Below are positions 1 to 19,145 of a stretch of DNA of 64,000 nt, piece after piece (position 1 is the stretch's first letter; each line of letters starts with the position of its first letter). The DNA lies in contig NZ_CP097263.1 of assembly GCF_028622115.1 (NCBI RefSeq), positions 4,960,001-5,024,000 of the forward strand, given 5' to 3'. The position numbers were made by a program, and so were the translations under genes. A model generated the notes under the pieces. It did no database searches. It worked only from the letters and a program-made list of their open reading frames with translations, and was not told where the DNA came from. This stretch comes from Kutzneria chonburiensis (GTDB lineage: Bacteria; Actinomycetota; Actinomycetes; Mycobacteriales; Pseudonocardiaceae).

Positions 1-1943
1 TGATTACCCCTGCGGGAACCGTAAGAGTTGAACTCCGGTATGCCTCTTACAGTCAGGTAGCGACCGGCCGGGGAGTCGGCCGGGATGCCGCCGACCGGCG
101 AGATGTGGTCCGTGCTGACGTCGTCGCCCAGCGCCACCAGTACGCGGGCGTTGCGGAGTTCGGCCGTCAGGGGCTTGCCGTCGACGTAGGCCGGCGGCCG
201 GATGTAGGTGGAATCGGGGTCCCAGGCGAAGACTTCGCCGGTCTGGGCCGGGATGCTCGCCCAGCCGTCGGGCGCGGCGATCGGCACCGTGAAGACCTCG
301 GGCTTGAGGCACTCCTCGGCCAGCGCCGCCAGCTCTTGCGAGCTCGGCCAGATGTCGCGCAGGAACACCGGCTCGCCGTCGCTGCCGATGCCCAGCGGCT
401 CCGCCTCCAGGTCGATCCGCACGTGACCGACCAGCGCCAACGCCACGACCAGGGCCGGCGAGGCGAGGTAGCCCGCGCGGACCTGCGGATGCACCCGGCC
501 TTCGAAGTTCCGGTTCCCGCTGAGCACCGCCGCCGCGACCAGCCCGTCGCGATCGACCGCCTCCGCGATCTCCGGGTGCAGGGCCCCGCTGCCGCCGTTG
601 CAGGTCATGCAGCCGTAGCCCGCGATGTGGAAGCCGAGCGTCTCCAGGTCGTCGAGCAGACCGGTGTCCTTGAGGTAGCGGGTCACGGCCAGTGATCCCG
701 GCGACAGGCTGGTCTTGACGTGCTTCGGCACCGTCAGTCCGCGCTCGACCGCCCGCCGGGCCAGCAACCCCGCAGCCAGCATGGCCTGCGGATTGGACGT
801 GCTGGTGCACGAGGTGATCGACGCGATGGCCAGGTCGCCGTCACGCGAACCGGGTTCGCGGTCGAGCCGGGCGGCGAAGGAATCCGGCAGGTCGGACAGG
901 TCGATGCGCTGGTCGGGGCGGCTGGGGCCGGCCAGGCTGGGGCGCACTGTGCCGAGGTCGAACTCGATGAGCCGGCCGAAGCGGGGTTCCGCGCCGGTCC
1001 GCAGCAGACCCTGCTCGCGACAGTAGCGCTCGACGCGCTGCACCTCGTCCGAGGGGCGGCCGGTCTCGCGGAGATAGCGAAGGGTCTCCTCGTCGACCGG
1101 GAAGAAGCCGGTCATGGCACCGTATTCCGGGGCCATGTTGGCGATGGTGCAGCGGTCCTGGGCGGAGAGCTGGGCCAGGCCGGGGCCGGTGAACTCGACC
1201 AGCAGGCCGCGTACGTTCTCCTTGCGCAGCAACTGGGTCAGGGTCAACACCACGTCGGTAGGGCCGACACCGGGTTTGATGGCGCCGGTCAGCCGGACGC
1301 CGACGACCGGCGGGATCTTGATCGGGTGGGCCAGGCCCACCAGGAGCGCCTCGGCCTCCAGGCCGCCGACGCCCCAACCCAGGACGCCGAGGCCGTTGAC
1401 CATGGTGGTGTGGCTGTCGGTGCCGATCACGCTGTCGGGGAAGGATTCCCCGTCCTCGGTGGCGACGACGGTGGCCAACCGCTCCAGGTTGACCTGGTGC
1501 ACGATGCCCTGGCCGGGCGGGATGACCCGCAACCGGTCGAACGCCCGCTCGGCCCACTTGAGGAAGGCGTAGCGCTCCCCGTTCCGGGAAAGCTCCAGGG
1601 ATTCGTTGCGGGACAAGGCATCTGGCCGGCCAGCGAAGTCGGTCTGGACGGAGTGGTCGACAACGACGTCCACCGGCAGGGCCGGGTTGACCCGTGCCGG
1701 CTGGTCGACGCGGTCACGGAGTGCCGCCAGGTCGACGAGCAGCGGAATACCGGTGTAGTCCTGCACGAGGATCCGCGCCGGCCGGAACTCCATCTCCAGG
1801 TCCGGGTCCTCGCCGGCGGCCAGCCGCTTGACCAGCAGAGCCGCCTTGTCGGTGTCACCGTTGCGCAGCAACGACTCGGCGAGCACCCGTCCGCAATACG
1901 GGACAGAACTCAAGTCAGAAGTGAACTCCGGCAGACTGATCAT
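1..1943 (-). CDS. AcnA-type aconitase/isomerase, 3' end beyond window
   Basis: This is an aconitase-superfamily hydro-lyase, which would isomerise a citrate-like tricarboxylic acid through a [4Fe-4S] cluster in the cytoplasm. About 647 residues are visible and the frame is still open at the window edge; family members run near 900. Family landmarks are in order: QDYTG (about 61-65), DHSVQ (about 96-100), IGTDSHTT (about 173-180), the cluster cysteine in TSCTSTSNP (about 379), two more in GYGCMTCNGG (about 445 and 448), and FNSYGSRRGN at the edge. The ATG at 1943 overlaps the stop of the ACP-citrate synthase gene as ATGA, so the two are probably translationally coupled. The central motif has S where housekeeping enzymes usually have N (TSCTNTSNP), and the setting is a small biosynthetic operon. 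I infer a pathway-specific paralogue, like the isomerase of phosphinothricin biosynthesis, rather than the TCA enzyme. The substrate is unknown. Confidence 0.9.
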   Translation of the reverse strand, partial: MISLPEFTSDLSSVPYCGRVLAESLLRNGDTDKAALLVKRLAAGEDPDLEMEFRPARILVQDYTGIPLLVDLAALRDRVDQPARVNPALPVDVVVDHSVQTDFAGRPDALSRNESLELSRNGERYAFLKWAERAFDRLRVIPPGQGIVHQVNLERLATVVATEDGESFPDSVIGTDSHTTMVNGLGVLGWGVGGLEAEALLVGLAHPIKIPPVVGVRLTGAIKPGVGPTDVVLTLTQLLRKENVRGLLVEFTGPGLAQLSAQDRCTIANMAPEYGAMTGFFPVDEETLRYLRETGRPSDEVQRVERYCREQGLLRTGAEPRFGRLIEFDLGTVRPSLAGPSRPDQRIDLSDLPDSFAARLDREPGSRDGDLAIASITSCTSTSNPQAMLAAGLLARRAVERGLTVPKHVKTSLSPGSLAVTRYLKDTGLLDDLETLGFHIAGYGCMTCNGGSGALHPEIAEAVDRDGLVAAAVLSGNRNFEGRVHPQVRAGYLASPALVVALALVGHVRIDLEAEPLGIGSDGEPVFLRDIWPSSQELAALAEECLKPEVFTVPIAAPDGWASIPAQTGEVFAWDPDSTYIRPPAYVDGKPLTAELRNARVLVALGDDVSTDHISPVGGIPADSPAGRYLTVRGIPEFNSYGSRRGN

Positions 1944-3310
1944 TCCGCGGCCCCGGGGTACACCCGGGCGCGCGGGCCCGTGTAGTCCAGCAGCGGGCGG
2001 ATGAGCACGTTGTTGGCGTGCTGCTCCAGGCCCTGCGCCACCCACCCCGCGGTCCGGCCGACGACGAACAGCGCCACGGCGAGGTCGTCGGGCAGTCCGA
2101 GCAGGCGATAGGCGAGGCCGGCGTACAGGTCGACGTTCGGGGCCACGCCGTGCCGGCTGTAGGGCCGCATGGCCCGCGCGACGGCGTCGAGGATCTCCAA
2201 GCCGCTGCGGTCGCCGCGCTCCTCGCTCAGCTCGACCACGGTCTCGCGCAGGTGGCGTACTCGCGGGTCCTCGGTGCGATACACCCGGTGCCCGAAACCC
2301 ATCACCGGCTCGCCGCGGCCGAACCGCTGCGCCACATAGGTTTCGGCGTTCTCCGGCGTACCGACCTCGTCGACCAGCAGCGCCGCACGCTCGGCCGCGC
2401 CGCCGTGCACGGAACCGGCGAAGGTGGCGATGGCGGCCGTGACGGCGGCGGTCATGCTCGACCGGCTGCCGATGGCGATACGGGCGGTGAAGGCCGACGC
2501 GTTGGAGCTGTGATCGGCGTGCACGATGAAGCCCTTGTTGAGGAACCGCACCGCCGCCGGGCTCGGCCGTTCGCCCAGCAGCACGGTGAGGAATGCCTCG
2601 GCGTAGCTGCTGTCCTCGGCCGGCACCAACGGTTCCCGGCCACTCCGGAACGCGTGGTGCGCGGCGACGATCATCGGAATCTTGGCCACCAGGGCGATTC
2701 CGGCGTCGCGGGCCTGGGCATAGCTCTCGTCGACGCCGGGCGAGCGGGGCTGACCGTACGCGCCGAGCGCCGACACGCAGGTACGCAGCGCCTCGACCGG
2801 GTGCGCGTGGGCCAGCGAGCGGACGAGGTCCAGCACCGGCGCGGGCAGTTCCCGTTGCGCGCGCAGCTCCTTCTCGAACACGTTCAGCTCGTCGGCGTCC
2901 GGCAGCTCGCCGTTGATCAGCAGATAAGCGACCTCCTCGAAGGTCGCGTTGCGGGCCAGGTCGTGGATGCTGTAGCCGCGATACTCCAGCACGCCCTCGG
3001 CCCCGTCGATACGGGTGATCGACGTGTGATCGAAGGCGACACCCTCCAGTCCACGATGGACAGTGCTCTCCGGCCGAGCCTCGCGCTCCACGGTTCCGCC
3101 ACCGATGAATTCCCTGATCGCTTCGACCGACCGCAGCTCGATCGTCAGGTCGTCATCGATACTGACGCCGTACTCCCGTTCCAGCGCCACCATCAGCGCG
3201 ACGTGGGCCAACGAGTCCCACTCGTGCACCGACTGGTACTCCAGCTCGCCGGTGACCGACGACTCGTCGATCTTGAGCGTGTCGGCGATGACGTGCTCGA
3301 CGGTGTTCAT
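1940..3310 (-). CDS. acyl carrier protein - citrate synthase fusion
   Basis: A 456-residue protein. Residues 1-75 form an acyl carrier domain with the phosphopantetheine serine at about 33 (WDSLAHV). From about 90 to the end it is a citrate synthase. The synthase catalytic residues look intact: His in VHADHSSNAS, His in SVHGGAAERA, Asp in NVDLYAG, plus GFGHRVYRTEDPR and the RTAGW helix. Ordinary citrate synthases use acyl-CoA; the fused carrier suggests the nucleophilic acyl group is delivered on the carrier arm and condensed with oxaloacetate or another 2-oxo acid. The start ATG has GAGG about 5 bases upstream. The gene follows the adenylation enzyme and overlaps the aconitase by 4 bases. 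The open frame continues upstream of the ATG, but that part is an out-of-frame reading of the adenylation gene. The domain assignment is certain; the carrier-bound condensation is inference. Confidence 0.92.
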   Translation of the reverse strand: MNTVEHVIADTLKIDESSVTGELEYQSVHEWDSLAHVALMVALEREYGVSIDDDLTIELRSVEAIREFIGGGTVEREARPESTVHRGLEGVAFDHTSITRIDGAEGVLEYRGYSIHDLARNATFEEVAYLLINGELPDADELNVFEKELRAQRELPAPVLDLVRSLAHAHPVEALRTCVSALGAYGQPRSPGVDESYAQARDAGIALVAKIPMIVAAHHAFRSGREPLVPAEDSSYAEAFLTVLLGERPSPAAVRFLNKGFIVHADHSSNASAFTARIAIGSRSSMTAAVTAAIATFAGSVHGGAAERAALLVDEVGTPENAETYVAQRFGRGEPVMGFGHRVYRTEDPRVRHLRETVVELSEERGDRSGLEILDAVARAMRPYSRHGVAPNVDLYAGLAYRLLGLPDDLAVALFVVGRTAGWVAQGLEQHANNVLIRPLLDYTGPRARVYPGAAE

Positions 3311-4859
3311 GATCCCCTCGGTTCCCCAACCAGGCCCGCAGCGCGCCGCGGTCGACCTTTCCGTTGCTGTTGACCGGCATCTCGTCGATGACGTGCACCG
3401 ACCTCGGCACCATGTACGCCGGCAGGCTGGCCGCCACCGCGTCGGCGAGGCCGGTCGTCCCGGTGCCCGAGACCACGGCGGTGATCGTGTCGGCGTCCGG
3501 CCACACCAGGCACACCGCCTCGGCGCAGCCGCTGCGCCGCAGCACGGCCTCGATCTCGCCGAGCTCGATGCGGTAGCCGCCGATCTTGACCTGCTGGTCG
3601 TTCCGTCCGATGTAGACGAACTCGTCATGCTGCCGGCGGACCAGATCCCCGGTCCGGTAGTAGATCCGACCGTCACGCGAGAAGTACCGCTGCGCGGTCT
3701 GCTCCGGCGCCTGCCAGTAGCCCGGCGTGGTCTGCGGGCCGGCGACGCACAGCTCGCCCGTCTCCCCCTCGGCCACCGGAACGAGATTCTCGTCCACCAC
3801 CAACGAATGCAGGCCCGGGTACAGCTGCCCGATCGGCACGTTGTCGTGCACACAGCGCGCCGGGCTGGTCACCGGATCCCAGCGGTGCACCGAGCAGGCG
3901 ATGGTCAGCTCGGTCGGCCCGTACAGGTTCTCCACCACCGAATTCGGCGCCGCCTCCTGCCAGGCCCGGGCGATCCCGGCCGGCAGCGCCTCGCCGCAGA
4001 ACAGGCTCCAGCGCAGCGTCGGCATCCGGCCCGGCGTCAGCGCGCCCCGCTTGTCGAGCACCATTGCCACCGACGGCACCGAGAACCACACGCTGATCTC
4101 GTTGCGCTGCAAGTACTTGAACGGGGCCAGCAGCTCGATCGGGTCCATCGCGCACACCCGGGCCCCGTTCTCCCAGGCCATGAACAGGTCGAAGACCGAA
4201 AGATCGAAGGTCTGATCGAAGGTCTGGGTGAACCGGTCCTCGGGGGTGATGCGGTACCGCTCCTGGTTGACGTCCACAAAGGACCGCACATTGCCGTGCG
4301 TGACCGGAACACCCTTGGGCGTGCCGGTGCTGCCGGAGGTGAACAGCAGATAGGCGATGTCGTCCGGCAACACCGGAACCGGCTCGGACAGCGTTGCTGC
4401 CGCCGCGAGATCCGTCGCGGTCAGCAGCGGCGCGTCCAGGCCATCCGGGAGACGGGAGCCGGGCGCGAGCACGAGCGGCTTGCGGCGCAGGCCGTGCAGC
4501 AGCTCCGGCAGCTGAGCCATGGAGGCATCGTCCACGACGATCGCGTCCAGGTCGGCCCGCTCGAGCATGGTCCGGGTCCGCTCCAGCGGAAACTTCCGGT
4601 TCAGCGGCACGAACGCCGCCCCGGCCAACAGCGCGGCCAGCACGCCGGCGTAGGACGCCTCGCTGCGGTGCGCGAAGACGCCGACCCGCTTGGGCGCGGT
4701 GGCGCCGTCCAGCAGGCGGGCGGCCCAGCGGCGGGCCGTGTCATCGAGCTCGGCATAGGTGTGATCACGCTTGCCGATGGTCAGCGCCACGTGGTCGGGA
4801 CGGGTGGCGGCGTGTGCGAGGAAGCCCGCGCCCAGGCTTCGGTTGAGTGCGATGGTCAT
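3153..4859 (-). CDS. stand-alone amino-acid adenylation enzyme
   Basis: An ANL-superfamily adenylation protein of NRPS type, 568 residues as read. It would activate an acid as the AMP ester and load it on a carrier, most likely the ACP encoded next. Core motifs: A3 LLFTSGSTGTPKG (171-183), NLYGPTE (about 311-317), YRTGDL (about 401-406), GRNDQQVKIGGYR (about 418-430) and the A10 lysine in NSNGK (about 501). The Asp that normally binds a substrate alpha-amino group is present in TFDLSVFDLF (about 219), so an amino acid is likelier than a fatty acid. No condensation or carrier domain is attached. The A domain is complete by about residue 512, yet the frame runs on 157 bases into the ACP gene with compositionally meaningless sequence. 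One extra G in the GGGG run near 3315 would give a stop overlapping the ACP start as ATGA, so the true end is probably about 3307. Substrate not assigned. Confidence 0.9.
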   Translation of the reverse strand: MTIALNRSLGAGFLAHAATRPDHVALTIGKRDHTYAELDDTARRWAARLLDGATAPKRVGVFAHRSEASYAGVLAALLAGAAFVPLNRKFPLERTRTMLERADLDAIVVDDASMAQLPELLHGLRRKPLVLAPGSRLPDGLDAPLLTATDLAAAATLSEPVPVLPDDIAYLLFTSGSTGTPKGVPVTHGNVRSFVDVNQERYRITPEDRFTQTFDQTFDLSVFDLFMAWENGARVCAMDPIELLAPFKYLQRNEISVWFSVPSVAMVLDKRGALTPGRMPTLRWSLFCGEALPAGIARAWQEAAPNSVVENLYGPTELTIACSVHRWDPVTSPARCVHDNVPIGQLYPGLHSLVVDENLVPVAEGETGELCVAGPQTTPGYWQAPEQTAQRYFSRDGRIYYRTGDLVRRQHDEFVYIGRNDQQVKIGGYRIELGEIEAVLRRSGCAEAVCLVWPDADTITAVVSGTGTTGLADAVAASLPAYMVPRSVHVIDEMPVNSNGKVDRGALRAWLGNRGDHEHRRARHRRHAQDRRVVGHRRAGVPVGARVGLVGPRRADGGAGTGVRRQYR

Positions 4860-5182: not shown

Positions 5183-8113
5183 ATGAGAGTAAGGCTGCTG
5201 GGGCCGGTCGAGCTGACCGCCGATCAGCATCCGCTCGACCTCGGCGGGCCGCGGCAACGGGTGGCGCTGGCCGTGCTGGGGCTCAACGTGAACCGGGTCA
5301 CCTCGGTCGACCACTTGATCGACGCCATCTGGGGCGAGGCCCCGCCGCCGACCGCGCGGGCCCAGATCCAGGTCTGCATCTCCTCACTGCGCAAGCGCTT
5401 CGGCGAAGCCGGCCGTCCTGACGCGATCAAGACCCGGTCACCCGGCTATGTGCTCGAACTCGATTCGTCCGAGGTGGACAGCCTGGAGTTCGGCGAGCTG
5501 GTGGCCGTCGCCCAGCAGGACGCCGAGGCCGGCCGGACCGCCGCCGCGGCGGCAACTTTGCGTACCGCCCTCGGCTTGTGGCGCGGGCCGGCGTTGGACG
5601 GCGTGACCAGCGATCTGCTGCGGCACGAGGCCACCGTGCTCAACGACCGGCGGCTGACCGTGCTGGAGGAGCGGTTCCGGCTGGACCTGCTGCTGGGCCG
5701 GCACGAGGAGGCCAATGCCGAGCTGCCGGCGCTGATCGGCGTGCATCCGCTGCGGGAACGCCTGTACGGCCTGCTGATGGTGGCGCTGTACCGGTCCGGG
5801 CGGCAGGCCGAGGCGCTGGAGGTGTTCCAGCGGGCGCGGGCCCTGCTGGTCGAGGAGATCGGCATCGAGCCCGGCCCCGAGCTGTGCGAGCTGGAACACG
5901 CCATCCTGAATCGTTCCCCGGCACTGGACCTGGCCCCGGTCGACCTGGCCGCGCCGGAGCCCGAAACCCGGGTGACACCACGGCAGCTGCCCACCACCAT
6001 CGGCGATTTCACCGGCCGGGACGGGCTTCTCGACGAGATCCGGCGGCTGGTCGGGGCCGAGGCCGGGCTGGCGGTGCCGATCGTGGCCATCTCCGGGCGC
6101 GGCGGCGTCGGCAAGTCGGCACTGGCCATCCACGCCGCGCACGAGCTGGGCCAGCACTTCCCGGACGGGCACCTGTACGTGGACCTGCACGCGCCGGAAT
6201 CCGACGACCGGACACCGGCGCTGCTGGCCCGGTTCCTGCGAGCCCTTGGCGTACCGGCAACTTCGGTGCCGGACGGGGCCGAGGAGCGGGCGGAGCTGTA
6301 CCGCAGCCGGCTGGCCGACAAGCGGGTGCTCCTGGTGCTGGACGGCGTCCGTGACGAGGCCCAGGTGTGGCCGCTGCTGCCCGGCAGCCCGACCTGCGCG
6401 GTGATCGCCACCAGCCGGTCCCGGCTGAGCGGCGTGCCCGGGGCTTTGTGTTTGGACGTGGGCGTTTTCTCGCCGGACGGCGGGTTGGAGCTGCTGGGGC
6501 GGATCATCGGCGCGGACCGCGTGCAGGCCGAGCCGGAGGCCGCGGCCGAGCTGGTCGCGCTGTGTGACGGGCTGCCGCTGGCCCTGCGGATCGCCGGCGC
6601 AAGGCTGGCGTCACGGGCGCACTGGCGGATCGACGGCTTGGTGCGACGGCTGCGTGACGAGCAGCGCCGGCTGGACGAGCTGAGCCATCGCGGGCTGGAG
6701 ATCCGGTCCAACATCGGGCTCACCTACCAGGCGCTGCCCTCGGTCGCCCAACGGCTGTTCCGGCTGTTTTCCCTTGTCCAGGCCCCGGATTCGCCGGCAT
6801 GGGTGGCCGCGGCGCTGCTGGACGTGGATCTGGCGACCGCCGAGGACATCCTGGACGCCCTCGTCGAGGCGCAGGCCATGGAAACCGTGCAGTACCCCGA
6901 TTCGCCCCATCCGCGTTACCGGTTCCACGAGCTGATCCGGGCCTATGCGCGGGAACAGCTGCTGGACGTCGAGTCCACAGTGGACCGCGATGCCGCGTTG
7001 GCGCGGATGCTCGGCGGCTGGATGGCGTTGGCCGAGGAGGCGCATCGGCGGGAGTACGGCGGCGACTACACCGTGATCCACGGCACCGCCGCCCGGTGGC
7101 GGCTGCCGGCCGAGGTGTCTGCGGAGATCATCGGCACGCCCATGACGTGGTGGGACAGCGAACGGCATGCCCTGGTCGCGGCCGTGCGGCAGGCCGCTGA
7201 GGCCGGCATGGACGAGCTGTGCTGGGATCTGGCACTGACCTCCGTGACCTTGTTCGAAGCCAAGGGATATTTCGACGACTGGCGGGAGACCGCCTGTCAT
7301 GCCCTCGGGGCTTCCTCGGAGGCCGGCAACCGCACCGGAACCGCGGCCGCGCAGTATTCCCTTGGCACGCTGCACATGTTCCAGACGCGGACCGCCGAGG
7401 CGGCCAACTGTTTCCGGGCCGCGCTGATGTTGTTCGAGGCCGTCGGCAACATGCACGGCCAGGCGCTGGTGCTGCGCAACGCCGCCCACGTCGACGGCAT
7501 TCGCGGCGACAACGAGGCCATGCTGGCCAAGTACGACGAGGCGCTGGAGATCATGCCGCTGGTCGGGGACCGGATCGGCGAGGCCCACATCCAGCGCAGC
7601 CTGGCCGGCTGGTGGCTCGGCCAGGGGCAGACCACCCGCGCTCGCGGCCTGCTGGAGCAGGCGCTGAGCATTTCCCGGCAGGAACACTGCCTGCGCGTCG
7701 AAGCCCAGGTCCTGCACCGGTTTGCCGAGCTGCACGTGGCCGTCGAACGCTTCGATCTCGCCCGGGAGGCGCTGCACCGGGTGCTACGCATCGTGCGCAA
7801 CATCGGCGACCAGATCGGCGAGGCCTATGCCGTGTACGGGCTCGGCGTTGTGCGGCAACGGGAAGGGCGGCTGGACGCCGCGGCCACCACCATGGCCCAT
7901 GCGCTGGATCTGTCCCGCCGGCTCGGCGAACGTCTGGTGGAGGCCCGATCCCGCTACGCCCTGGGCGAGATCGCCTTGCTGCGGGCCGACTTCATGCTCG
8001 CGTCGACCCATTTGCAGGCCGCCAGAACGCTGTTCGCGGCGCTGGGCTCCACGGTGTGGCTCGATCGCACCCTCGGCCTGCTCGACGAGGTGGAGGTGGG
8101 TGTGCCCAGCTGA
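5183..8113 (+). CDS. AfsR/SARP-family transcriptional regulator
   Basis: A 976-residue large SARP. The order is an OmpR-like winged-helix DNA-binding domain (about 1-95, MRVRLLGPVEL), a bacterial transcriptional activation domain (about 95-245), an NB-ARC/STAND ATPase with P-loop GRGGVGKSA (about 305-313), and a C-terminal TPR array (from about 720). Proteins of this layout activate pathway genes in actinobacterial antibiotic clusters. The ATG at 5183 follows a G-rich ribosome site. It is divergent from the adenylation/ACP-citrate synthase/aconitase operon and is followed 78 bases later by an ornithine-cyclodeaminase-like gene. I infer that it controls this small locus. The family call is secure, the target is inference. 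Confidence 0.93.
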   Translation: MRVRLLGPVELTADQHPLDLGGPRQRVALAVLGLNVNRVTSVDHLIDAIWGEAPPPTARAQIQVCISSLRKRFGEAGRPDAIKTRSPGYVLELDSSEVDSLEFGELVAVAQQDAEAGRTAAAAATLRTALGLWRGPALDGVTSDLLRHEATVLNDRRLTVLEERFRLDLLLGRHEEANAELPALIGVHPLRERLYGLLMVALYRSGRQAEALEVFQRARALLVEEIGIEPGPELCELEHAILNRSPALDLAPVDLAAPEPETRVTPRQLPTTIGDFTGRDGLLDEIRRLVGAEAGLAVPIVAISGRGGVGKSALAIHAAHELGQHFPDGHLYVDLHAPESDDRTPALLARFLRALGVPATSVPDGAEERAELYRSRLADKRVLLVLDGVRDEAQVWPLLPGSPTCAVIATSRSRLSGVPGALCLDVGVFSPDGGLELLGRIIGADRVQAEPEAAAELVALCDGLPLALRIAGARLASRAHWRIDGLVRRLRDEQRRLDELSHRGLEIRSNIGLTYQALPSVAQRLFRLFSLVQAPDSPAWVAAALLDVDLATAEDILDALVEAQAMETVQYPDSPHPRYRFHELIRAYAREQLLDVESTVDRDAALARMLGGWMALAEEAHRREYGGDYTVIHGTAARWRLPAEVSAEIIGTPMTWWDSERHALVAAVRQAAEAGMDELCWDLALTSVTLFEAKGYFDDWRETACHALGASSEAGNRTGTAAAQYSLGTLHMFQTRTAEAANCFRAALMLFEAVGNMHGQALVLRNAAHVDGIRGDNEAMLAKYDEALEIMPLVGDRIGEAHIQRSLAGWWLGQGQTTRARGLLEQALSISRQEHCLRVEAQVLHRFAELHVAVERFDLAREALHRVLRIVRNIGDQIGEAYAVYGLGVVRQREGRLDAAATTMAHALDLSRRLGERLVEARSRYALGEIALLRADFMLASTHLQAARTLFAALGSTVWLDRTLGLLDEVEVGVPS

Positions 8114-8191
8114 TTTGGCCGACGAGAAGCGCTTCGAAAGCGTGCCGCTGTTCCATGGCCCCAGTGATCGTTGAGTTCGGAGGGGCATCGG

Positions 8192-9091
8192 ATGAGTGGC
8201 TTCGTGCGGCAGCTCGGTTCTGACGAGCTGCTCCGCGCCCTCGACGAGATCGACCTCGTCGACGTGCTGGCCACCGAGCTCAGCGGCCGTGTCACCGATC
8301 CCGGCGCCGACCGCAGCGGCGGGTGGACGCTCGACACCGCCCGCTCCCGCAGCTCCGGGGCCGAGCTCGCCGTGCTGTCCGCGCCCGACGCCGACACCCG
8401 ATTCGCCCTGCCCAGCGCCCATCTGCGGGCCTGCCGCTGCGCCGCCCTCACCACGTTGGCCTCTCAGCTGCTGCTGTCCCCCGGCGTTGTCACGGTCACT
8501 GTGCTGGGCTCCGGCTTTCCCGCCCATGTGCAGTCCGCCGTGCTCGGGCGGCTGCTGCCCGACGTCAGCCATGTGGCCGTGCACTCCGGCGTCGCCACTC
8601 CCCGCCTGGCCAGGCAGTTCGCCGCCGCCAGCATCGGGCTGTCCGTCGCCCCCACCGCCGACGACGCCGTTTTCGGCGCCACCCTGGTCGTCGTCACCGG
8701 CGACGAGCCGCCCGTGCTCCGCTCCACCCGGCTCGCCCGTGGCGCCGTCGTCGTCAACGCCAGCGGGCGCGAGCTGCCCGCCCCTTTCGTCGACTGCGTC
8801 AGCTCCGTCTACGTCGACGACCTTTCCCTGCTGGCGTCCCACCCTCGCCGCTATCTCACGCCCGAGGCCCCGCGCCGCCTGCTGCCGCGATACCACCGCG
8901 TCGAGGCCGATCTGGCCCAGGTCCTCACCGAGGTCGACGCCGGTCGTAGCCACCGCGACGACGTGCTGCTCGTCGAACTGCTCAGCACCGACCGCCTCGA
9001 CGCCTACCTCGCGCTGCGCGTCTATCAGGCCGTCATCGAACTCGGCCTCGGCCACGTGCTGGCGACGGACATCATGGCCTTCGCCACCTAG
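8192..9091 (+). CDS. ornithine cyclodeaminase / mu-crystallin family protein
   Basis: A 299-residue member of the OCD/mu-crystallin family, NAD(P)-binding enzymes that include ornithine cyclodeaminase, alanine dehydrogenase and N-carboxyalkyl amino-acid dehydrogenases such as SbnB. The dinucleotide-binding stretch is VTVLGSGFPAHVQ (about 100-112), followed by the Rossmann pattern to about residue 200. The ATG at 8192 was chosen because GGAGGGG lies 8 bases upstream; an earlier in-frame TTG at 8171 has no such site. The C-terminus overlaps the convergent HExxH gene by 4 bases. The N-terminal substrate domain is divergent, so the substrate cannot be read. Because it follows the SARP gene, it may make or reduce an amino-acid intermediate for the neighbouring locus. 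Confidence 0.8.
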   Translation: MSGFVRQLGSDELLRALDEIDLVDVLATELSGRVTDPGADRSGGWTLDTARSRSSGAELAVLSAPDADTRFALPSAHLRACRCAALTTLASQLLLSPGVVTVTVLGSGFPAHVQSAVLGRLLPDVSHVAVHSGVATPRLARQFAAASIGLSVAPTADDAVFGATLVVVTGDEPPVLRSTRLARGAVVVNASGRELPAPFVDCVSSVYVDDLSLLASHPRRYLTPEAPRRLLPRYHRVEADLAQVLTEVDAGRSHRDDVLLVELLSTDRLDAYLALRVYQAVIELGLGHVLATDIMAFAT

Positions 9092-12042: not shown

Positions 12043-15000
12043 TCACAGTGGCAACGGGTCCAGGTCGCAGTTGGCGCGGGTCCTGGTCGACGCGGCCACC
12101 ACGCCGGGGTGTTTGTCGCCCAGCACGCGGCGATAGCGGTTCATCACGTCGACGTACAGCGGGTCCGCCTCCTGCCCGCGGCCAAGCGCCCGCAGGTCGA
12201 ACGTCCGGTTCACCGCCGCGGCCAACGTCGTCGGGTGATCGGCGCCGAGCACTCGTTCCGCCCGGGCCACGACGTCGTTGTCCAGCTTCAGCGCATTCTC
12301 GAACTCGCCGCGCGCGGCCAGATCGCTGGCCAGGTTGATGGCGGCGCCGATGGCGTGCGGCTGGTCCGGGCCGAACATGGTGCGGAACTGCTCGAGCGAA
12401 CGCTCGTCCAGCGTCTGCGCCGCATCCGCGTCGCCCATCAGCCGCAGGGTCACGGCCAGGTCGACCGCCGCCGCAAGCGTGTGCGGGTGGTGCTCGCCCA
12501 GCACTGCGCGGTACCGGCCGAACGTCTCCTCGCCCAGCTGCTGGGCGGCGCTCAGCTCACCGGCGTTGCGCAGGTTGATCGACTGGCCGATGGCGCAGGC
12601 CAGCGTCTGCGGGTGCGAGTCGCCGTACCGAATCCGGTACCGCTGCCAGGCCTGCGTCGACCGTTCCAGCGCGCCGGCGTGATCGCCGTTCTTGCGCAAC
12701 GCCATCGACAGGTGGTGCTGGCGCTGCAAGGTGGCCGCGGTGTCCTCGCCGAACAGCCGCGCGGCCCGCTCGGCCAGCCGCTCCTGTTCGACCGAGGCCC
12801 AGCCGTACTCGCCCAGCTCCATCCGGTCCAGGATCAAGCCGCCCAACACGTTCAGCGTCTGCGCGGCGTCGTAGCCACGCAGTTCCACCTGCCGCTTGTA
12901 CATGTCCTCGTCCAGGACACGCGCCTCGGTGTACTCGCCGACCAGACGCAGGATCACGCCGAGGTCGTGGGCCGCGGACAGGGTGACCGGGTCGTCGTCG
13001 CCGAAGACGCCCTTGGCCTTCTGGTAGACGTCACGGTTCACCGCGAGGGCCCCGCTGAAGTCGCCCTTGGCCCGCCGGTCGACGGCCACCCGGCGCTCGG
13101 CCAGCAGCGTCTCCTCGCTGTCCTCGCCGGACACCCGCCGGTGCAGCGCCAGCGTCCGCTCGTTGATCGGGCTCGCCTCGCCGTACCGGCCGAGCGTCCA
13201 CAGGTAGATCGCCTGCTGGCCCCAGGCCTGCAACAGCTGCGGATCGGTCTCGTCCAGCCGGTTCTGCCAGGTCTCGGTGGCCCGCTTGGCGAGGTTGGCC
13301 GCCTCCTCGTGGTCACCCCACTGGTAGAGGAAGGTCATCAGGTTCAACACCAGCTGGCGGACCCAGCGGTCGTCGCACTCGACGATGTCCGACGCGTAGG
13401 CGTGCGGCAGGATCGCCTGGTAGCGCGGCCACTGGCCGGCCGTGTTCGGGTCGTTCGGATCGAGGTTGGCCAGCAGCTGGTGGGCCCCGTGCTTCATGTC
13501 GGCCCGCCGCTGCGGCGGCATCCGGTCCCGCAACACCAGCTGGACCAGGCGGTGCAGCAGCAGCGTGTCGTTGCGGTGGTCGATCTTGGCCAGGCCGTAG
13601 CGGTTGATGTCCCGGATGGCCCGCCCCAACCGGATCGGGTCGCGCAGCGCGGCGTCCAGCTCCACCGCGATGGACAGCCCGCGCACGCCGGTGAACAGGC
13701 TGCGCGAGATCGGGTCGGGCGCGAAGAACGCGCACACCTGGAGCAGCTGGTGGGCCGCCGGGTTGCGCGATTGCAGCTCGTCGAACGAGACGTTCCAGGC
13801 CGCGGCCAGCGGCACCTCGTAGTCGTCCGGTCGGGTGGTGTCCAGGATCTCGGCCACTTTCTCGTCGAACAGGCGCAGGTACTCCCGCACCGGCATGCCG
13901 GTCTCCGCTCGCCAGGCCGCGGCCTGGGCGATGGCCAGGGGCAGGTCCCCCAGTTTCTGGGCCAGTGCGTCGGCCTGCGCGTCGTCGATCTCCGGGCCGC
14001 GGCGGCGCAACAGCTCCTTGCTCTCGGCCCGGCTGAACACGGCGATCTCCAGTGGCCGGGCCACCCCGGCCCAGTCCGGATTGCGCGAGGTGATCAGGAT
14101 TTCGCCGGGGCCGTTGGACGGGAAGAACGGCCGGACCGCCTCCGGGCTCTCGGCCGAGTCGAACACCAGCAGCCAGCGCCGGTACGGCACGCCGATGCGC
14201 AGCGCCTCCCGTACGGCGGGCACCGCCGTGTGCGCCTCGCGGGCGCCGGGCAGCCGCAGCGCCTGGGCGAGATCGGTGAGGGCGGCCCGGATCTGGGCCG
14301 GCTGGGTGGCCTGGATCCACCACACCAGCTCGTAGTCCTCGAGATGGCGGTAGATGTACTCGGCGGCGATCTGGGTCTTGCCGATGCCGCCCATGCCGTG
14401 CAGCGCGGCCGGCAGGATCGCGGTGGTGCCGCCGGCCGTGAGCCGCCGGCTCAGCTGGCCGAGCAGGTCGTCGCGGCCGGTGAAGATCGGGTTGCGCGGG
14501 GGCACGTCGCCCCAGATGGTGGGCACGTCGTCGGCCCGGGGCGTGTGCGGGGCCGAGACGATCGCCAGCTCCGTGCGCCGTGGCGACGGGTCGGCCGGCG
14601 GCGGCACGGCGACCGGGTCACCGGGCCCGGCCGCTGGCACCGTGTCGGACGCGCTCGTGCTCACTGAACCGATCCTGCCGCCACCCTGGGTTCCCGCGAG
14701 TCCAACCTCCTTCGTGTTGAGGCGGGTTTCGCTCGATCGGGTGTCTTCCACGGCACTCTCCTCCAGTCGGGCGGCGCGGCGCAGGTACGGGCCGCTCAGG
14801 GCCCGCAGCACGGTGCGGTCCAGCGGATGCTCGGCGGTGGGTTCGGGGGCGTTGGCCGGATCGCCGATGATCTCGGCGAGAGACGTGAGTACCGAGTGGT
14901 GCTCGGCGACGGTGCGGACGACATGGGCCGTGTCCGTGCGGCGCGCACCGGACAGCAGCACCTCGCGCACGGCGGTGGACGCGAACTCGAACGACGTCGT

Positions 15001-16311
15001 CTGCCAGGAGTCCGGGCCGCTGGGCCGCAGCAGGCCGCTGTCGAGCACTTCGGCCAGATGCGCCGGGCCGGATTCGGGGACCAGCTCGGCCTGCACGGTG
15101 CGCGCGACGTCCAGATTCACCGGAACCGCCGCGAGCAGCGTGGCCAGCCGGTACGAGAGTGGGGACGCCCGGCCGAGAAACCGGGTCACCAGTTCGTGCG
15201 CCGACGGCGGGGCGACCGGCTCGTCCTCGGCGACGGCGGGCCGGGACTTGGTCCTGGCCAGCATGACCATCGCCTTCGCGGGCCGCGACCGAGCGCCGGT
15301 GAACAGCGCGGCGCAGCTCGCCATCCACCGTGGCATCAGCTCGAAAACCGGGATCGGCACCGCGTCGGCGGTGTCGGCCGCCGCCTGTTCCGGATCCACC
15401 CAGGCGTCGTCGAGCGTGACCTGCCAGCCGCGGTTGGGCGCGAGCGGCCGCGGCGGCAGCACGTCCGCGTGACGCAGTCCCAGCCGGCTGCGCGACCACA
15501 TCCGTTGCGGCAGCATGTGAACGAGCGCCACCGGCATCACCGCGGCCCAGTGCGCGAGCATCGCGGCGACCCGCCCCTGCCGCCACGCCGCGCCGACGCC
15601 GTCGGTCAGCACCAGCACGATCCGGCGGCCGGAGAAGTCGACGACCTCGCCGGGGCCGTGGGCCGGGGTGTCGGCCCCGGACCGCAGCACCGGTTCCCCT
15701 GTTGCGTCAAGGAAGCAGTGGTGGACGGATCGGAACGCGCCGAGCTGCTCCACCACGGCGGTGAAGGCCCGCACGGTCGGCCGCCACAGCACCATGGACG
15801 GGCTCATGTCGACCACCAGCGTCAGATCCAGCCATCGGGTCTGGACCGGCTTGGTGATCGGCAGCCACACGCCGCTCTGTGCCGCCCGTTCGGCCGTTTC
15901 CTCTTCGTCGAGCTCGATCTCGTCCGGGCGCGGCGACGGCACCCGGCGCTTGAACGGCCGGAGCGCGCGGATCATGTCCGCCGGGGTCCACGGCAGCGTC
16001 GCGGTGGCACGGAGCTCGCCGCGAACCGGAGTGATCTCCGGTTCCGGCGGACGGCTCTCCGGTTCCGTCCGAGGGACTACCGGGTCCACTGTGGACGGAT
16101 GCGGGGGCGGATCCGTCACAGGCTCGGGCACGGGCCGGGCAGTCGGGGGTGGGCGGTCGGCGGGCGGCGGCTCACCGGCGGCGTCCCGCGGCCGGTGCTG
16201 CCGCTCCCAGAACCGTTGCGTGGCCACGCCGAGCCAGACGGCGTCGGCGAACTCGCGCCAGCTCAACGCATCGCCCGTCCGGCCGGCCGGCCCGTCTACT
16301 GCCCCCGCCAT
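12043..16311 (-). CDS. vWA - STAND NTPase - TPR protein (FxsT-like)
   Basis: A 1422-residue cytoplasmic regulator or effector. The N-terminal part matches the SAV_2336-like domain and includes a von Willebrand A fold with MIDAS motif DMSPS and a later VLTDG. An NB-ARC-type NTPase follows, with P-loop GMGGIGKT (about 650) and Walker B LLVFDSAE. The last 450 or so residues are kinesin-light-chain-like TPRs (repeated G-x-x-H-P-x-T-L units). The arrangement matches the FxSxx-COOH system TPR protein and the vWA component of the vWA-MoxR-VMAP ternary conflict systems described by comparative genomics. The MoxR gene ends 1 base before this start, so they are coupled. It probably recruits or senses partners through the TPRs; the actual trigger is unknown. 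Confidence 0.85.
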   Translation of the reverse strand: MAGAVDGPAGRTGDALSWREFADAVWLGVATQRFWERQHRPRDAAGEPPPADRPPPTARPVPEPVTDPPPHPSTVDPVVPRTEPESRPPEPEITPVRGELRATATLPWTPADMIRALRPFKRRVPSPRPDEIELDEEETAERAAQSGVWLPITKPVQTRWLDLTLVVDMSPSMVLWRPTVRAFTAVVEQLGAFRSVHHCFLDATGEPVLRSGADTPAHGPGEVVDFSGRRIVLVLTDGVGAAWRQGRVAAMLAHWAAVMPVALVHMLPQRMWSRSRLGLRHADVLPPRPLAPNRGWQVTLDDAWVDPEQAAADTADAVPIPVFELMPRWMASCAALFTGARSRPAKAMVMLARTKSRPAVAEDEPVAPPSAHELVTRFLGRASPLSYRLATLLAAVPVNLDVARTVQAELVPESGPAHLAEVLDSGLLRPSGPDSWQTTSFEFASTAVREVLLSGARRTDTAHVVRTVAEHHSVLTSLAEIIGDPANAPEPTAEHPLDRTVLRALSGPYLRRAARLEESAVEDTRSSETRLNTKEVGLAGTQGGGRIGSVSTSASDTVPAAGPGDPVAVPPPADPSPRRTELAIVSAPHTPRADDVPTIWGDVPPRNPIFTGRDDLLGQLSRRLTAGGTTAILPAALHGMGGIGKTQIAAEYIYRHLEDYELVWWIQATQPAQIRAALTDLAQALRLPGAREAHTAVPAVREALRIGVPYRRWLLVFDSAESPEAVRPFFPSNGPGEILITSRNPDWAGVARPLEIAVFSRAESKELLRRRGPEIDDAQADALAQKLGDLPLAIAQAAAWRAETGMPVREYLRLFDEKVAEILDTTRPDDYEVPLAAAWNVSFDELQSRNPAAHQLLQVCAFFAPDPISRSLFTGVRGLSIAVELDAALRDPIRLGRAIRDINRYGLAKIDHRNDTLLLHRLVQLVLRDRMPPQRRADMKHGAHQLLANLDPNDPNTAGQWPRYQAILPHAYASDIVECDDRWVRQLVLNLMTFLYQWGDHEEAANLAKRATETWQNRLDETDPQLLQAWGQQAIYLWTLGRYGEASPINERTLALHRRVSGEDSEETLLAERRVAVDRRAKGDFSGALAVNRDVYQKAKGVFGDDDPVTLSAAHDLGVILRLVGEYTEARVLDEDMYKRQVELRGYDAAQTLNVLGGLILDRMELGEYGWASVEQERLAERAARLFGEDTAATLQRQHHLSMALRKNGDHAGALERSTQAWQRYRIRYGDSHPQTLACAIGQSINLRNAGELSAAQQLGEETFGRYRAVLGEHHPHTLAAAVDLAVTLRLMGDADAAQTLDERSLEQFRTMFGPDQPHAIGAAINLASDLAARGEFENALKLDNDVVARAERVLGADHPTTLAAAVNRTFDLRALGRGQEADPLYVDVMNRYRRVLGDKHPGVVAASTRTRANCDLDPLPL

Positions 16312-16312
16312 C

Positions 16313-17404
16313 TCACGACACCGAGGTCAGTCGCCGCCACAGCGCGTCCAGCAGCCGTGGCCAGGATTCGTCCTGCTCGTCGTAGGCGCCGGAGGTGGCC
16401 AGGAACACCGCGTCCAGCAGCTTGTTGGCCGGCAGGCCGCCGGCCGCCGCACTGCGGTCCACGAACTCCTGGATCAACGCGGCGCGCCGCTCGTCGTCGC
16501 CGGCCCGCAGATGCGCGGCGACCATCGCGGTGAGCTGGTCGATGCCGGGCTCGGCCAGCCGCAGTTGCAGGCAGCGACGGAGGAACGCCTCCGGAAAATC
16601 CCGTTCACCGTTGCTGGTGATGACGACCACCGGGAATTCACGGCACCGCACCCGGCCGCCGTTGATCACGGCCCGCCGGTCCGGATCATCGGTGAACACG
16701 CTGACCTCGGGCGTTCTCTGCTGAACGCGCACCAATTCCGGAATTGAAAACTGCCCGTTCTCGAATATGCCGAGAAGATCGTTGGGCAGATCGACCTCGC
16801 TCTTGTCGAACTCGTCGATCAGAAGCACCCTCGGTGTCACGCTGGGTAGGAATGCGGTCCCCAATGGGCCCAACCGCACGAAGTCCCCGATCGGCGGTTC
16901 CTCGGGCGGGTCGCCGGTTCCCCTGGCGGCCGCGGCGGCCTGCACCCGGTCGATCGGGTCGTACCCGTACAGCCCGTTGCGCAGCGTGGTGCGACTGGAG
17001 ATCGACCACTGCAGGACCCGTCCCAGCCCGAGCTCGCGGGCGATCCGGAAGGCCAGCGTGGACTTCCCGGTGCCCGGCCGGCCGGTCACGATCAGTGGCC
17101 GGCGCAGGTACAGCGCGGCATTGACGGCGTCGACCTCGTGCGGATCGACGTCCCGTTCGGACAGGTGCAGCTCGACGCCGAGCCGGCGCGTCCCCTCCCC
17201 GTCGCCGTCCTGGGGCGGCTCGTCGGAGTCCGGCAGCGGGCCGCCGTCGAAGGTCCGCCAAGGCGGTGGCGGTGGCAGTAGGTCGATCGGTCTAACGTCA
17301 TGCCAGGGTCGCCCGACACCCCGGTAAATCCACCAGTCCGGCGTAGTGAATCGCGGGGTTCGATTACCCGCGGCGACTGCGTCGGGAGTTTGTTGGTCGC
17401 CCAT
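16313..17404 (-). CDS. MoxR-family AAA+ ATPase
   Basis: A 363-residue AAA+ ATPase of the MoxR group, which typically works as a chaperone with a vWA-domain partner. Walker A is GRPGTGKST (about 106-114), Walker B is LLIDEFDK, the sensor-1 region is ITSNGERD and the arginine-finger region is FLRRC. ATG 17404 is preferred over an in-frame ATG 36 bases earlier because GGAGAGG lies 8 bases upstream of it. It sits between the VMAP gene (24 bases upstream) and the vWA-STAND-TPR gene (1 base downstream), the layout of a ternary vWA/MoxR/VMAP operon. Confidence 0.9.
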   Translation of the reverse strand: MGDQQTPDAVAAGNRTPRFTTPDWWIYRGVGRPWHDVRPIDLLPPPPPWRTFDGGPLPDSDEPPQDGDGEGTRRLGVELHLSERDVDPHEVDAVNAALYLRRPLIVTGRPGTGKSTLAFRIARELGLGRVLQWSISSRTTLRNGLYGYDPIDRVQAAAAARGTGDPPEEPPIGDFVRLGPLGTAFLPSVTPRVLLIDEFDKSEVDLPNDLLGIFENGQFSIPELVRVQQRTPEVSVFTDDPDRRAVINGGRVRCREFPVVVITSNGERDFPEAFLRRCLQLRLAEPGIDQLTAMVAAHLRAGDDERRAALIQEFVDRSAAAGGLPANKLLDAVFLATSGAYDEQDESWPRLLDALWRRLTSVS

Positions 17405-17427
17405 TCGGATCGCCTCTCCGCTCGTGA

Positions 17428-19145
17428 TCAACCCGCCCACTCGTCGAGATGGATCACACGGCCGGGGTCATCCCATAGCAGCACCACATCCTCAAGGGCA
17501 GTGTAAAGCACGTTCGTTGATTGATGGTTACGTCTTCTTGCTTTGTGTGTGCTCTCCGGTAACGCCATCAGACCGCCGTCCTCGATGAGTCCGGATACCA
17601 GATCACCAACAGTTTTCGGATCCGCGCCGTTCCGGTGCCAGAGGACGGCCGGCAGGCCCGACCGTAGCGCCGCGAGCAGCTCGTCACCACGGTCCGGCCG
17701 CACCGGCGGCGGCCCGGTCAACACGACCGTGACAACGGCCGGGTCGTCCTGCAGGACCGCGCCCAGCAGGTGCGGCCGGTCCGGATCCGGTGGCTGGGCC
17801 ACGTGCACCCGTCCGCCGGCCGGGTCGGCCGCGAACGCCGTCCAGCGCGTCTTCCAGGCCCGGTGCCACTGGCGCGACATCATTCTTTCGAGTGAGCGCA
17901 CCACCACCGGGTAGTCCAGGGACAGCGGCCGCGGATCACCCGACCGGTGTTCCTTCTGCCAGGCGTGGACCGGCAGGTTGAGCAGGGCGCGGGGCAGCAG
18001 CAGCTCGACCGTCACCGGGCCGTCGTGCCGTTCCCACGCGATCTCCGCGCCGACCACGAGATCGTCGACGTGCTGTTCGAGCTGGTCGACCGCGACCGTC
18101 ACCGGCTCGCCGCAGGCCGGCGGCCAGACCTCCGGATCGTCCTGCCGCCAGTGGAAGAGCAGGACCTGGTCCCGGCTCACGCCGTCGGGCAGCACGGCGA
18201 TCAACAGGTGCAACCGGGATTCCTTGTCCAGCTTCTCGACGACCGGCCGGTTGCCCGACCCGGCCGGCAGCCCGAGCCGGCGGGCCTGGTCCTCGGTCCA
18301 GCGGGCCAGCTGCTCCCCGCGGTCCCGGTCCACGATGCCGGCCAGGAGGCCGAGGAAGACCAATGCCGGCGGGACTCCGTCCGCTCCCGCGTTGAATTCG
18401 GCCAGGTGGCGCACGGAGGCCCAGGCGTCCGAACCAGGGGCGCCGGCGGCACGCCCGGGCCGCTCGCCCGTCCCACCAGCACCGGCAGGTGCGGCACGAA
18501 GACGCCGTCCAGCAGCGGGGCCAGTTGCTCGAGTTCCAGCTGCGGCTGCACGGCTTCCGGCTGCGGCGACTCCGCCACCCGCAGCCACGCGTGCGTCTGG
18601 GTTTGCTTGACGTCGACCGGAATCCGCCGGAACAGGTCCGGCGCCGCGGCCGGATCGGGTTCGATGACGTCACGGTAGAAGGCGTCCGAGGCGATCATGG
18701 CCAGGGCCGCGCCGGTCGCCTTGAGCACGTCTTTCGCCGCCGCCGCTTCGATGATGCGCGCCGCCAGGTTGATCGCCGGGCTGACCTCTCCCGCCGGGCC
18801 GCGCCACACTTCGCCCGCGTGGACCGCCACCCGCAGCTGCATCACCGCCGCCGCCGAGTGCAATGCGTTGTAGCGGCGCAGTTCCGCCACCAGCCGGCTC
18901 CACAGCTGGTCGACCAGCCTGATGTTGAACACGTCGCGCGGGGCGAGGATGAGTTTGCCGTCGCCCCGGTCTTCCACATCGCAGTCCTGCCAGGGGATCC
19001 CCGCGTCGTCGAAGGCCGTGGTCAGCAGTTCCACCAGCCGTTTGTGGATTTCGACCTGGTGCACGCCCCGCCGGTTGGCCGCCGTGAACCCCGCGACGTC
19101 CACGATGACGACCGTCCGATGCTGTGCCTCTGTGTACCCGAGCAC
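17428..19145 (-). CDS. VMAP protein, nucleotide-cyclase-like + VMAP-C, frame-broken
   Basis: Two frames make one protein. From GTG 19145 (GGAGGG 7 bases upstream) about 235 residues encode a class III nucleotide-cyclase-like domain: IVDVAGF with the metal Asp and DRGDGKLI with the second. After about 18450 the coding signal moves to another frame, which runs to 17428 and encodes a VMAP-C-type domain (LLIAVLPDGVSRDQVLLFHW, then a W-rich C-terminal half). Adding one C to the CCCC run near 18437 joins the frames (…ccc cct ggt tcg…) into a protein of about 572 residues. So this is either a sequencing error or a genuine loss of function. VMAP proteins accompany vWA and MoxR partners in proposed NTP-dependent defence systems. 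The first gene of its operon. Confidence 0.75.

Follow-up and report, generated by a model that had tools for sequence, protein, structure and literature searches.

The locus described here occupies the left end of a 64,000-nucleotide window of the Kutzneria chonburiensis genome, a 10.4-Mb single contig, and centers on a gene that joins an acyl carrier protein (ACP) to a citrate synthase (CS). This fusion, ACP-CS, is one open reading frame (ORF) of 456 residues (1943..3310, - strand). Its carrier domain (residues 4-68; 3107..3301, -) contains the phosphopantetheine serine, Ser33 (codon 3212-3214, -), and its CS domain (residues 87-451; 1958..3052, -; PF00285 / TIGR01800) contains His302, His341, and Asp394. 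Encoded beside it on the same strand are a stand-alone adenylation enzyme (ORF 3153..4859, -; homologous part approximately 3318-4859; TIGR01733) with pocket residues Asp219, Leu220, and Cys288, and an AcnA-type aconitase (TIGR01341), whose start at 1943 overlaps the ACP-CS stop (ATGA). The N-terminal part of the aconitase (1..1943, -) continues past the left edge of the window into a region designated L008 (C1:4942001-4962000), where 817 residues are encoded and the other end lies at L008 17490. L008 positions minus 18000 give window positions, and gene starts are approximate; all coordinates for which L008 is not named refer to the window.

Profile searches assign both halves of ACP-CS to their families. 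The CS domain scores 365 bits against PF00285 over residues 87-439 (cut-off 27), and residues 4-68 narrowly exceed the PF00550 cut-off (22.5 versus 20.8 bits). Ser33 lies within an EWDSL motif (DSM in Vibrio) and is unchanged in a four-row alignment of fusions; the serine is present in all eight fusions that we found. Also kept in eight of eight are the catalytic His302, His341, and Asp394 and the oxaloacetate-site residues Arg350, Arg419, and Arg438. The spacing of these six corresponds to that of H214, H253, D307 and R262, R332, R351 of MsCS, which has a His/His/Asp triad and citrate-binding arginine residues (PMC6386500), and PrpC has a triad of the same kind (PMC9765439). An initial annotation, made from the sequence of the window, had described a carrier and a complete synthase in one polypeptide with serine and catalytic residues intact. 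This is confirmed: ACP-CS is a single protein with a serine-bearing carrier and a complete synthase.

The search for further fusions suggested by that annotation yielded seven more loci, in Streptantibioticus silvisoli (G686), Streptomyces sp. TRM49041 (G684), three other genomes of the genus of TRM49041 (G890, G933, and G976, which with G684 make four Streptomyces-group genomes), Dactylosporangium fulvum (G685), and plasmid p251 of Vibrio tubiashii. With eight loci carrying the fusion, a sequencing or assembly error is ruled out as its cause, and the concern that ACP-CS might prove to be two separate proteins falls away. We compared regions of 35-41 kb around the fusion or DUF6025 gene, beyond which genes would be missed; the counts that follow include the K. 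chonburiensis locus. The adenylation enzyme and ACP-CS occur at all eight loci. Seven, from two phyla, also encode the aconitase, a DUF6025 protein, an enolase-type protein, a monooxygenase, and at least one ATP-grasp protein, with D. fulvum as the exception. A D-2-hydroxyacid dehydrogenase is present at six loci, as are a second ATP-grasp protein (not found in the G933 region or in D. fulvum) and a major facilitator superfamily (MFS) transporter detected by homology, in addition to which V. tubiashii has an annotated MFS gene. Apart from D. fulvum, all five other actinobacterial loci have a flavin reductase relative; the Vibrio region has none. Core proteins are 54-83% identical to those of K. 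chonburiensis at actinobacterial loci and 30-42% identical in Vibrio, except for the monooxygenase there, at 67%, which suggests either strong constraint on that gene or its separate transfer. Vibrio gene order differs, so the gene set is conserved but its layout is not. The entire V. tubiashii cluster lies on the plasmid (L085 14936-29126).

ACP-CS fusions are rare among the genomes surveyed. The synthase part finds matches in 297 of 298 genomes of the order, the best-scoring free-standing proteins being 39-41% identical among the matches listed; there, only the match from K. chonburiensis itself covers the ACP domain, and no other listed match begins before residue 58. In six further genomes of the genus, none of the matches listed covers both carrier and synthase. 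Within the family of D. fulvum, one of 300 genomes, D. fulvum itself, matches the ACP part at E 1e-13. A fusion-specific DNA pattern, which detects only fusions with set codons and linker lengths, returned 16 stretches from the genome contig collection, 3 of them true fusions and 13 noise. Because true fusions recur in this search and the operon is conserved, ACP-CS is not a product of chance. Among plasmids, 270 records match ACP-CS at E 1e-5. The matches listed mostly involve the synthase part; in the best 10 of the 270, only two V. tubiashii records span both domains, and these alone match the Vibrio fusion protein at E 1e-60. Plasmid matches from Anoxybacillus (query residues 28-451) and Thermomicrobium (53-451) were discarded as fusion candidates, being annotated as free synthases of ordinary length. 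Around the free synthase on S. clavuligerus pSCL4, no further core relative lies within 12 kb. Matches to DUF6025 above its cut-off come from 1 of 298 genomes in the order and 1 of 396 in the phylum, both times in K. chonburiensis, and from 4 of 392 in the genus of G684. A scan of the contig collection for DUF6025 returned none, a miss that means little because contigs of TRM49041 and S. silvisoli in that collection carry DUF6025 at 64-70% identity and the scan is thus insensitive.

The operon reaches approximately 9 kb left of the window. The aconitase that the initial annotation placed downstream of ACP-CS scores 994 bits against TIGR01341 (cut-off 945), as expected of AcnA. To the left of the aconitase follow ten more genes, of which two are on the opposite strand. 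The other eight, on the operon strand, encode the DUF6025 protein (L008 ~16111-17484, -; PF19490, 572 bits), an MR/MLE enolase-superfamily protein (L008 ~15131-16117, -), the D-2-hydroxyacid dehydrogenase (L008 14182-15129, -), an NtaA/DmoA-family FMN (luciferase-type) monooxygenase (L008 ~12835-14151, -; TIGR03860, 603 bits, cut-off 280), a flavin reductase (L008 ~12362-12844, -; PF01613), ATP-grasp protein 1 (L008 11127-12359, -), whose best ATP-grasp match, at 19 bits, is weak and below cut-off, ATP-grasp ligase 2 (L008 9892 to ~11163, -), which has an LAL_C2 domain, and the MFS transporter (L008 8657-9877, -), whose gene ends approximately 9.3 kb left of the window. All NCBIfam models fall far below their cut-offs on the enolase-type protein; the best is the N-acetyl-D-Glu racemase DgcA (171 bits, cut-off 400), and L-Ala-D/L-Glu epimerase models are also among the best. 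DUF6025 has no match in the Protein Data Bank up to E 1. Its four members from K. chonburiensis, S. silvisoli, TRM49041, and Vibrio share invariant His, Asp, and Cys residues, and by this pattern it may be an enzyme.

The clearest indication of how the first three activities relate comes from D. fulvum, in which the adenylation enzyme, ACP, and CS form one ORF of 999 residues (adenylation part 62% and ACP-CS part 56% identical to K. chonburiensis). At the other seven loci, ACP-CS and the adenylation gene share a cluster. Because D. fulvum joins all three in one chain, the adenylation enzyme appears to serve this carrier, and the carrier this synthase; judged by sequence, the trifunctional protein is the strongest sign that they work together. 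Its surroundings are of another kind. An ATP-grasp match is weak and 17 kb away, a monooxygenase is 38% identical and approximately 15 kb away, and a flavin reductase match is weaker and 12 kb away. Immediate neighbors (L080 2275-8646) include two radical-SAM-like proteins, one over and one below the Pfam cut-off, and others, lacking a Pfam match, that by eye resemble an amidinotransferase and an ATP-grasp protein. This content suggests that the D. fulvum cluster makes a different product, and the adenylation-ACP-CS set looks like a movable unit.

We propose, with a confidence a little above even, that the cluster encodes a carrier-tethered variant of the first tricarboxylic acid (TCA) cycle steps, in which glycine, or less likely D-alanine, is held on the ACP and condensed with oxaloacetate. 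The initial annotation had sketched activation, loading, condensation, and isomerization as a carrier-tethered TCA-like pathway. That sketch fits the single chain of D. fulvum, the shared gene set, and a pocket of the glycine/D-alanine type; from these we infer every chemical step, the order of steps from the aconitase onward, and the product class, so that the pathway label stays provisional. The adenylation enzyme would activate a small amino acid, with glycine the likeliest candidate and D-alanine a less likely one, and attach it to the phosphopantetheine arm of the carrier in ACP-CS. The CS domain would then remove a proton from the thioester-bound amino acid at its alpha carbon and join that carbon to oxaloacetate, and hydrolysis would free 2-aminocitrate (3-carboxy-3-hydroxyglutamate), the first product expected of citrate synthase chemistry on glycine and oxaloacetate, with a C-C bond to glycine formed without pyridoxal phosphate (PLP). 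Since a Pfam scan of 13 cluster proteins recognized no aminotransferase, the amino group probably enters with a substrate. The aconitase would isomerize 2-aminocitrate to an aminoisocitrate-like acid, and the dehydrogenase, the FMN monooxygenase with its flavin reductase, DUF6025, and the enolase-type protein would modify the glutamate-like acid. Knowledge of their families suggests that the dehydrogenase would act on aminoisocitrate, that the enolase-type protein would epimerize a glutamate-like residue, and that the NtaA-type monooxygenase would act beside nitrogen on a polycarboxylate. The ATP-grasp ligases would couple the glutamate-like acid to other amino acids, and the MFS pump would export a small peptide, probably an antimetabolite.

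We give an even chance to the narrower claim that ACP-CS is an aminocitrate synthase, which would condense a glycine thioester on its own fused carrier with oxaloacetate, form a C-C bond independently of PLP, and belong to a portable adenylation-ACP-CS unit that serves clusters of two kinds and has spread between Actinomycetota and Vibrio. If true, nonribosomal peptide synthetase (NRPS) logic would be joined to central-metabolism chemistry, and C-C bonds at glycine would form by way of thioesters rather than PLP. Such enzyme chemistry would be new, and new tricarboxylic amino acids would become accessible by a TCA-like route. A family of uncharacterized clusters, likely making glutamate-like antimetabolites, would become traceable by the fusion or by DUF6025, and DUF6025, a family of unknown function, gains a pathway context.

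The adenylation enzyme has the features of an amino-acid-activating NRPS-type enzyme, scoring 343 bits against TIGR01733 (cut-off 317). The initial annotation had noted that it keeps the amino-recognizing Asp, and this residue, Asp219, and the catalytic Lys501 are indeed invariant in the four enzymes aligned. Alignment with solved enzymes gives the pocket as Asp219, Leu220, Phe223, and Cys288, with Ala321 inside YGPTELTIA. This pocket is invariant in four actinobacterial enzymes, and the Vibrio enzyme (39% identity) has the same residues. The Asp/Leu/Cys combination is common to AlmE, which uses glycine, and DltA, which uses D-alanine. In AlmE, L248 and C316 are proposed to exclude residues other than glycine; in DltA, L198 and C269 are proposed to contact the D-methyl group, with C269 clashing with L-alanine (PMC11253843). 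The same route starting from D-alanine would yield a quaternary 2-methyl-2-aminocitrate, and we consider this unlikely. The Leu/Cys pair belongs to DltA as well as to AlmE, DltA models are the best NCBIfam matches after the general adenylation model, and the synthase model nearest to the CS domain is that for 2-methylcitrate/citrate synthase II; AlmE, however, aligns better than DltA over the pocket region (96 versus 63 bits), deprotonation of a substituted alpha carbon and formation of a quaternary center would presumably be harder, and no alanine racemase is present among the 13 scanned cluster proteins, although primary metabolism supplies D-alanine. The K. chonburiensis adenylation ORF itself runs past the point where its stop would be expected and enters the ACP gene by approximately 160 nt in another frame (3153-3316, -). 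The two genes may truly overlap, or the sequence may contain an indel near a G-run. In five actinobacterial relatives this ORF is separate and ends before the ACP start, and in D. fulvum it is fused in frame.

Citrate synthases are known as acyl-CoA enzymes, and an alternative is that ACP-CS makes citrate or an alkylcitrate from an ordinary acyl-CoA, the amino acid on the ACP serving a separate step and the fusion only co-localizing the two. We hold this to be slightly less likely than the D-alanine route. It draws on the fold and catalytic residues, which are those of acyl-CoA citrate synthases, and on BolR, the synthase of the bolagladin cluster, which was shown to use acetyl-CoA (PMC7756342). 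Opposing it are the single chain of D. fulvum, the lack of any recognized condensation domain among the 13 scanned proteins that could use a carrier-bound amino acid, the other citrate synthases encoded in the K. chonburiensis genome, and the altered residues of the CS domain itself. By its profile scores, that domain is a divergent family member and none of the named types: its best NCBIfam synthase model, TIGR01800, gives 377 bits (cut-off 421), and no synthase model exceeds its own cut-off. We aligned the 8 fusions with 42 rows of free-standing synthases (L004, L005, L015-L043, L046-L052, L072-L074, and L086, L005 and L052 being one gene; of the free synthases listed, only those with a locus were used). 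Position 269 is Ser in all 8 fusions and Phe, Met, or Gln in all 42 free rows; position 395, adjoining the catalytic Asp394, is Leu in all 8 and Phe or Tyr in all 42; and position 306 is Ala or Ile in fusions and Asn (34) or Pro (8) in free rows. Ser269 and Leu395 lie close to catalytic residues and might suit an altered acyl pocket, and the changes at all three positions might suit an amino substituent. Position 220 is Ala or Leu in the 8 fusions and Arg (38), Lys (3), or Ser (1) in free rows; we found no paper giving this position a role, so a loss of CoA binding cannot be read from it. In the tree, a branch with support of 100/100 separates the 8 fusions from the 42 free rows. The tree program warns that long branches meet, the Vibrio row (F_VTUB) among them, which makes the placement of that row unsure; a single origin of the fusions is permitted by the tree rather than proved. 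Eight free rows from the genus of K. chonburiensis (seven distinct genes: L004, L005/L052, and L047-L051) have Glu in place of the catalytic Asp and Pro at the position of Asn306, and several of these Glu-variant genes adjoin a second, divergent synthase-like gene.

A further possibility concerns the solved enzymes closest to the adenylation enzyme, 8k4r and IdnL7. 8k4r has Cys where the others have Asp, and we treat it as the cysteine mutant of VinM described in PMC11284099, the code being unconfirmed. VinM couples amino acids to an ACP-borne amine, forming an amide on 3AIB-VinL, and discriminates between this and the empty ACP (PMC11284099). By analogy, the adenylation enzyme here might form an amide on an amine already attached to the ACP rather than load the carrier. 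We regard this as improbable. IdnL7 accepts Gly, L-Ala, and L-Ser, and its C217, A285, and T318 are said to be conserved in VinM-type enzymes; this Cys/Ala/Thr set is absent here, where the residues are Leu220, Cys288, and Ala321, and the Pfam scan recognized no second ACP-loading enzyme among the cluster proteins. That the CS domain mainly cleaves a citrate-like thioester, as an ACP-dependent lyase or hydrolase, is very improbable. Weak matches to citryl-CoA lyase models and an RraA-type aldolase nearby speak for it, but the lyase models reach only 109 bits, versus 377 for the synthase model, and the synthase catalytic residues are present.

Besides the VinM-type relatives, several observations weigh against condensation of a carrier-bound amino acid. 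Acyl-CoA is the substrate of free-standing synthases of this fold, and by analogy ACP-CS may use it too. The carrier domain barely exceeds its Pfam cut-off, and a single-sequence structure model of ACP-CS has a mean pLDDT of only 36.7. For the enolase-type protein, the best solved match is labeled a muconate cycloisomerase, with dipeptide epimerases next. The decarboxylating dehydrogenase that the initial annotation expected to the left has a candidate in the operon, but one of D-2-hydroxyacid type rather than an isocitrate dehydrogenase, and it was found in neither the S. silvisoli nor the D. fulvum region. The latter region also gave no aconitase, DUF6025, or enolase-type match, so the fusion is not accompanied by the later steps at every locus.

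Comparison with known systems underscores the unusual composition of the cluster. ACP-CS shares with the type II citrate/2-methylcitrate synthases PrpC and CitZ the fold, the catalytic His/His/Asp, and the oxaloacetate-binding Arg, but differs in its N-terminal ACP, in Ser269, Leu395, and Ala/Ile306, and in its separate tree group. The phosphinothricin pathway employs a phosphinomethylmalate synthase and an isomerase, with acetyl-CoA and a phosphinate as substrates, and is not known to involve a carrier fusion. It resembles the route proposed here in combining citrate-synthase-like and aconitase-like steps toward a glutamate analogue built into a peptide; no phosphonate-forming enzyme is present among the 13 scanned proteins. 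AlmE and DltA are likewise stand-alone enzymes that activate glycine or D-alanine with the same pocket, but their aminoacyl group goes to a cell-surface polymer rather than into a C-C bond. VinM and IdnL7 are closest in sequence (with 8k4r as VinM unconfirmed) but differ in pocket residues, and VinM forms its amide on a beta-aminoacyl-ACP (PMC11284099). BolR, too, is a homologue of citrate synthase that has come to serve a natural-product cluster; it differs in using acetyl-CoA, in its proposed role in supplying a fatty-acid starter, and in that the available excerpts of the report mention no carrier fusion (PMC7756342). In the openly licensed (CC0, CC BY, CC BY-SA) PubMed Central literature, searches on synthase-carrier-aconitase combinations and on DUF6025 gave, as far as the listings show, no account of this system, and the excerpts on aminocitrate and alahopcin from the same literature covered only a synthetic phosphonic isostere of aminocitrate and inhibitors. 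An alahopcin-type cyclic hydroxamate was set aside as a product and remains speculation, as no source of its second nitrogen was seen; the carbon skeleton would fit. Beta-lactone and azaserine pathways, considered as models, showed no match in the portions of the reports available (PMC11427300, PMC10445470).

Several genes flank the operon. Beyond the MFS gene, on the opposite strand, lie the RraA-type aldolase (L008 ~7885-8499, +) and a YCF48-like BNR-repeat protein (L008 5237-7891, +); relatives of both occur in G684, G890, and G976, and S. silvisoli has a complete RraA gene and a YCF48 gene cut at the edge of the region fetched. The ornithine-cyclodeaminase-like gene (8171-9091), which the initial annotation took as a sign of a biosynthetic role, is weakly supported as such (PF02423, 26.8 bits, cut-off 24), and tblastn at E 1e-4 found no match to it across the eight regions searched; its membership in the pathway is unsupported, and it probably lies outside. 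A SARP-type regulator (5183..8113, +; PF03704 BTAD, 152 bits) is encoded divergently from the operon. A relative with 41% identity over almost its full length lies approximately 8 kb from the MFS gene of the TRM49041 cluster, no match was found in the other regions searched around the fusion loci, and a role as pathway regulator is possible. The clusters of S. silvisoli (L075 4321-10036) and TRM49041 (L078 13651-17531) each have a second monooxygenase, 72-74% identical to that of K. chonburiensis, together with another ATP-grasp protein and a gene that, judged from its start, is ketopantoate-reductase-like. These additional genes suggest that the two clusters make a longer or additional product.

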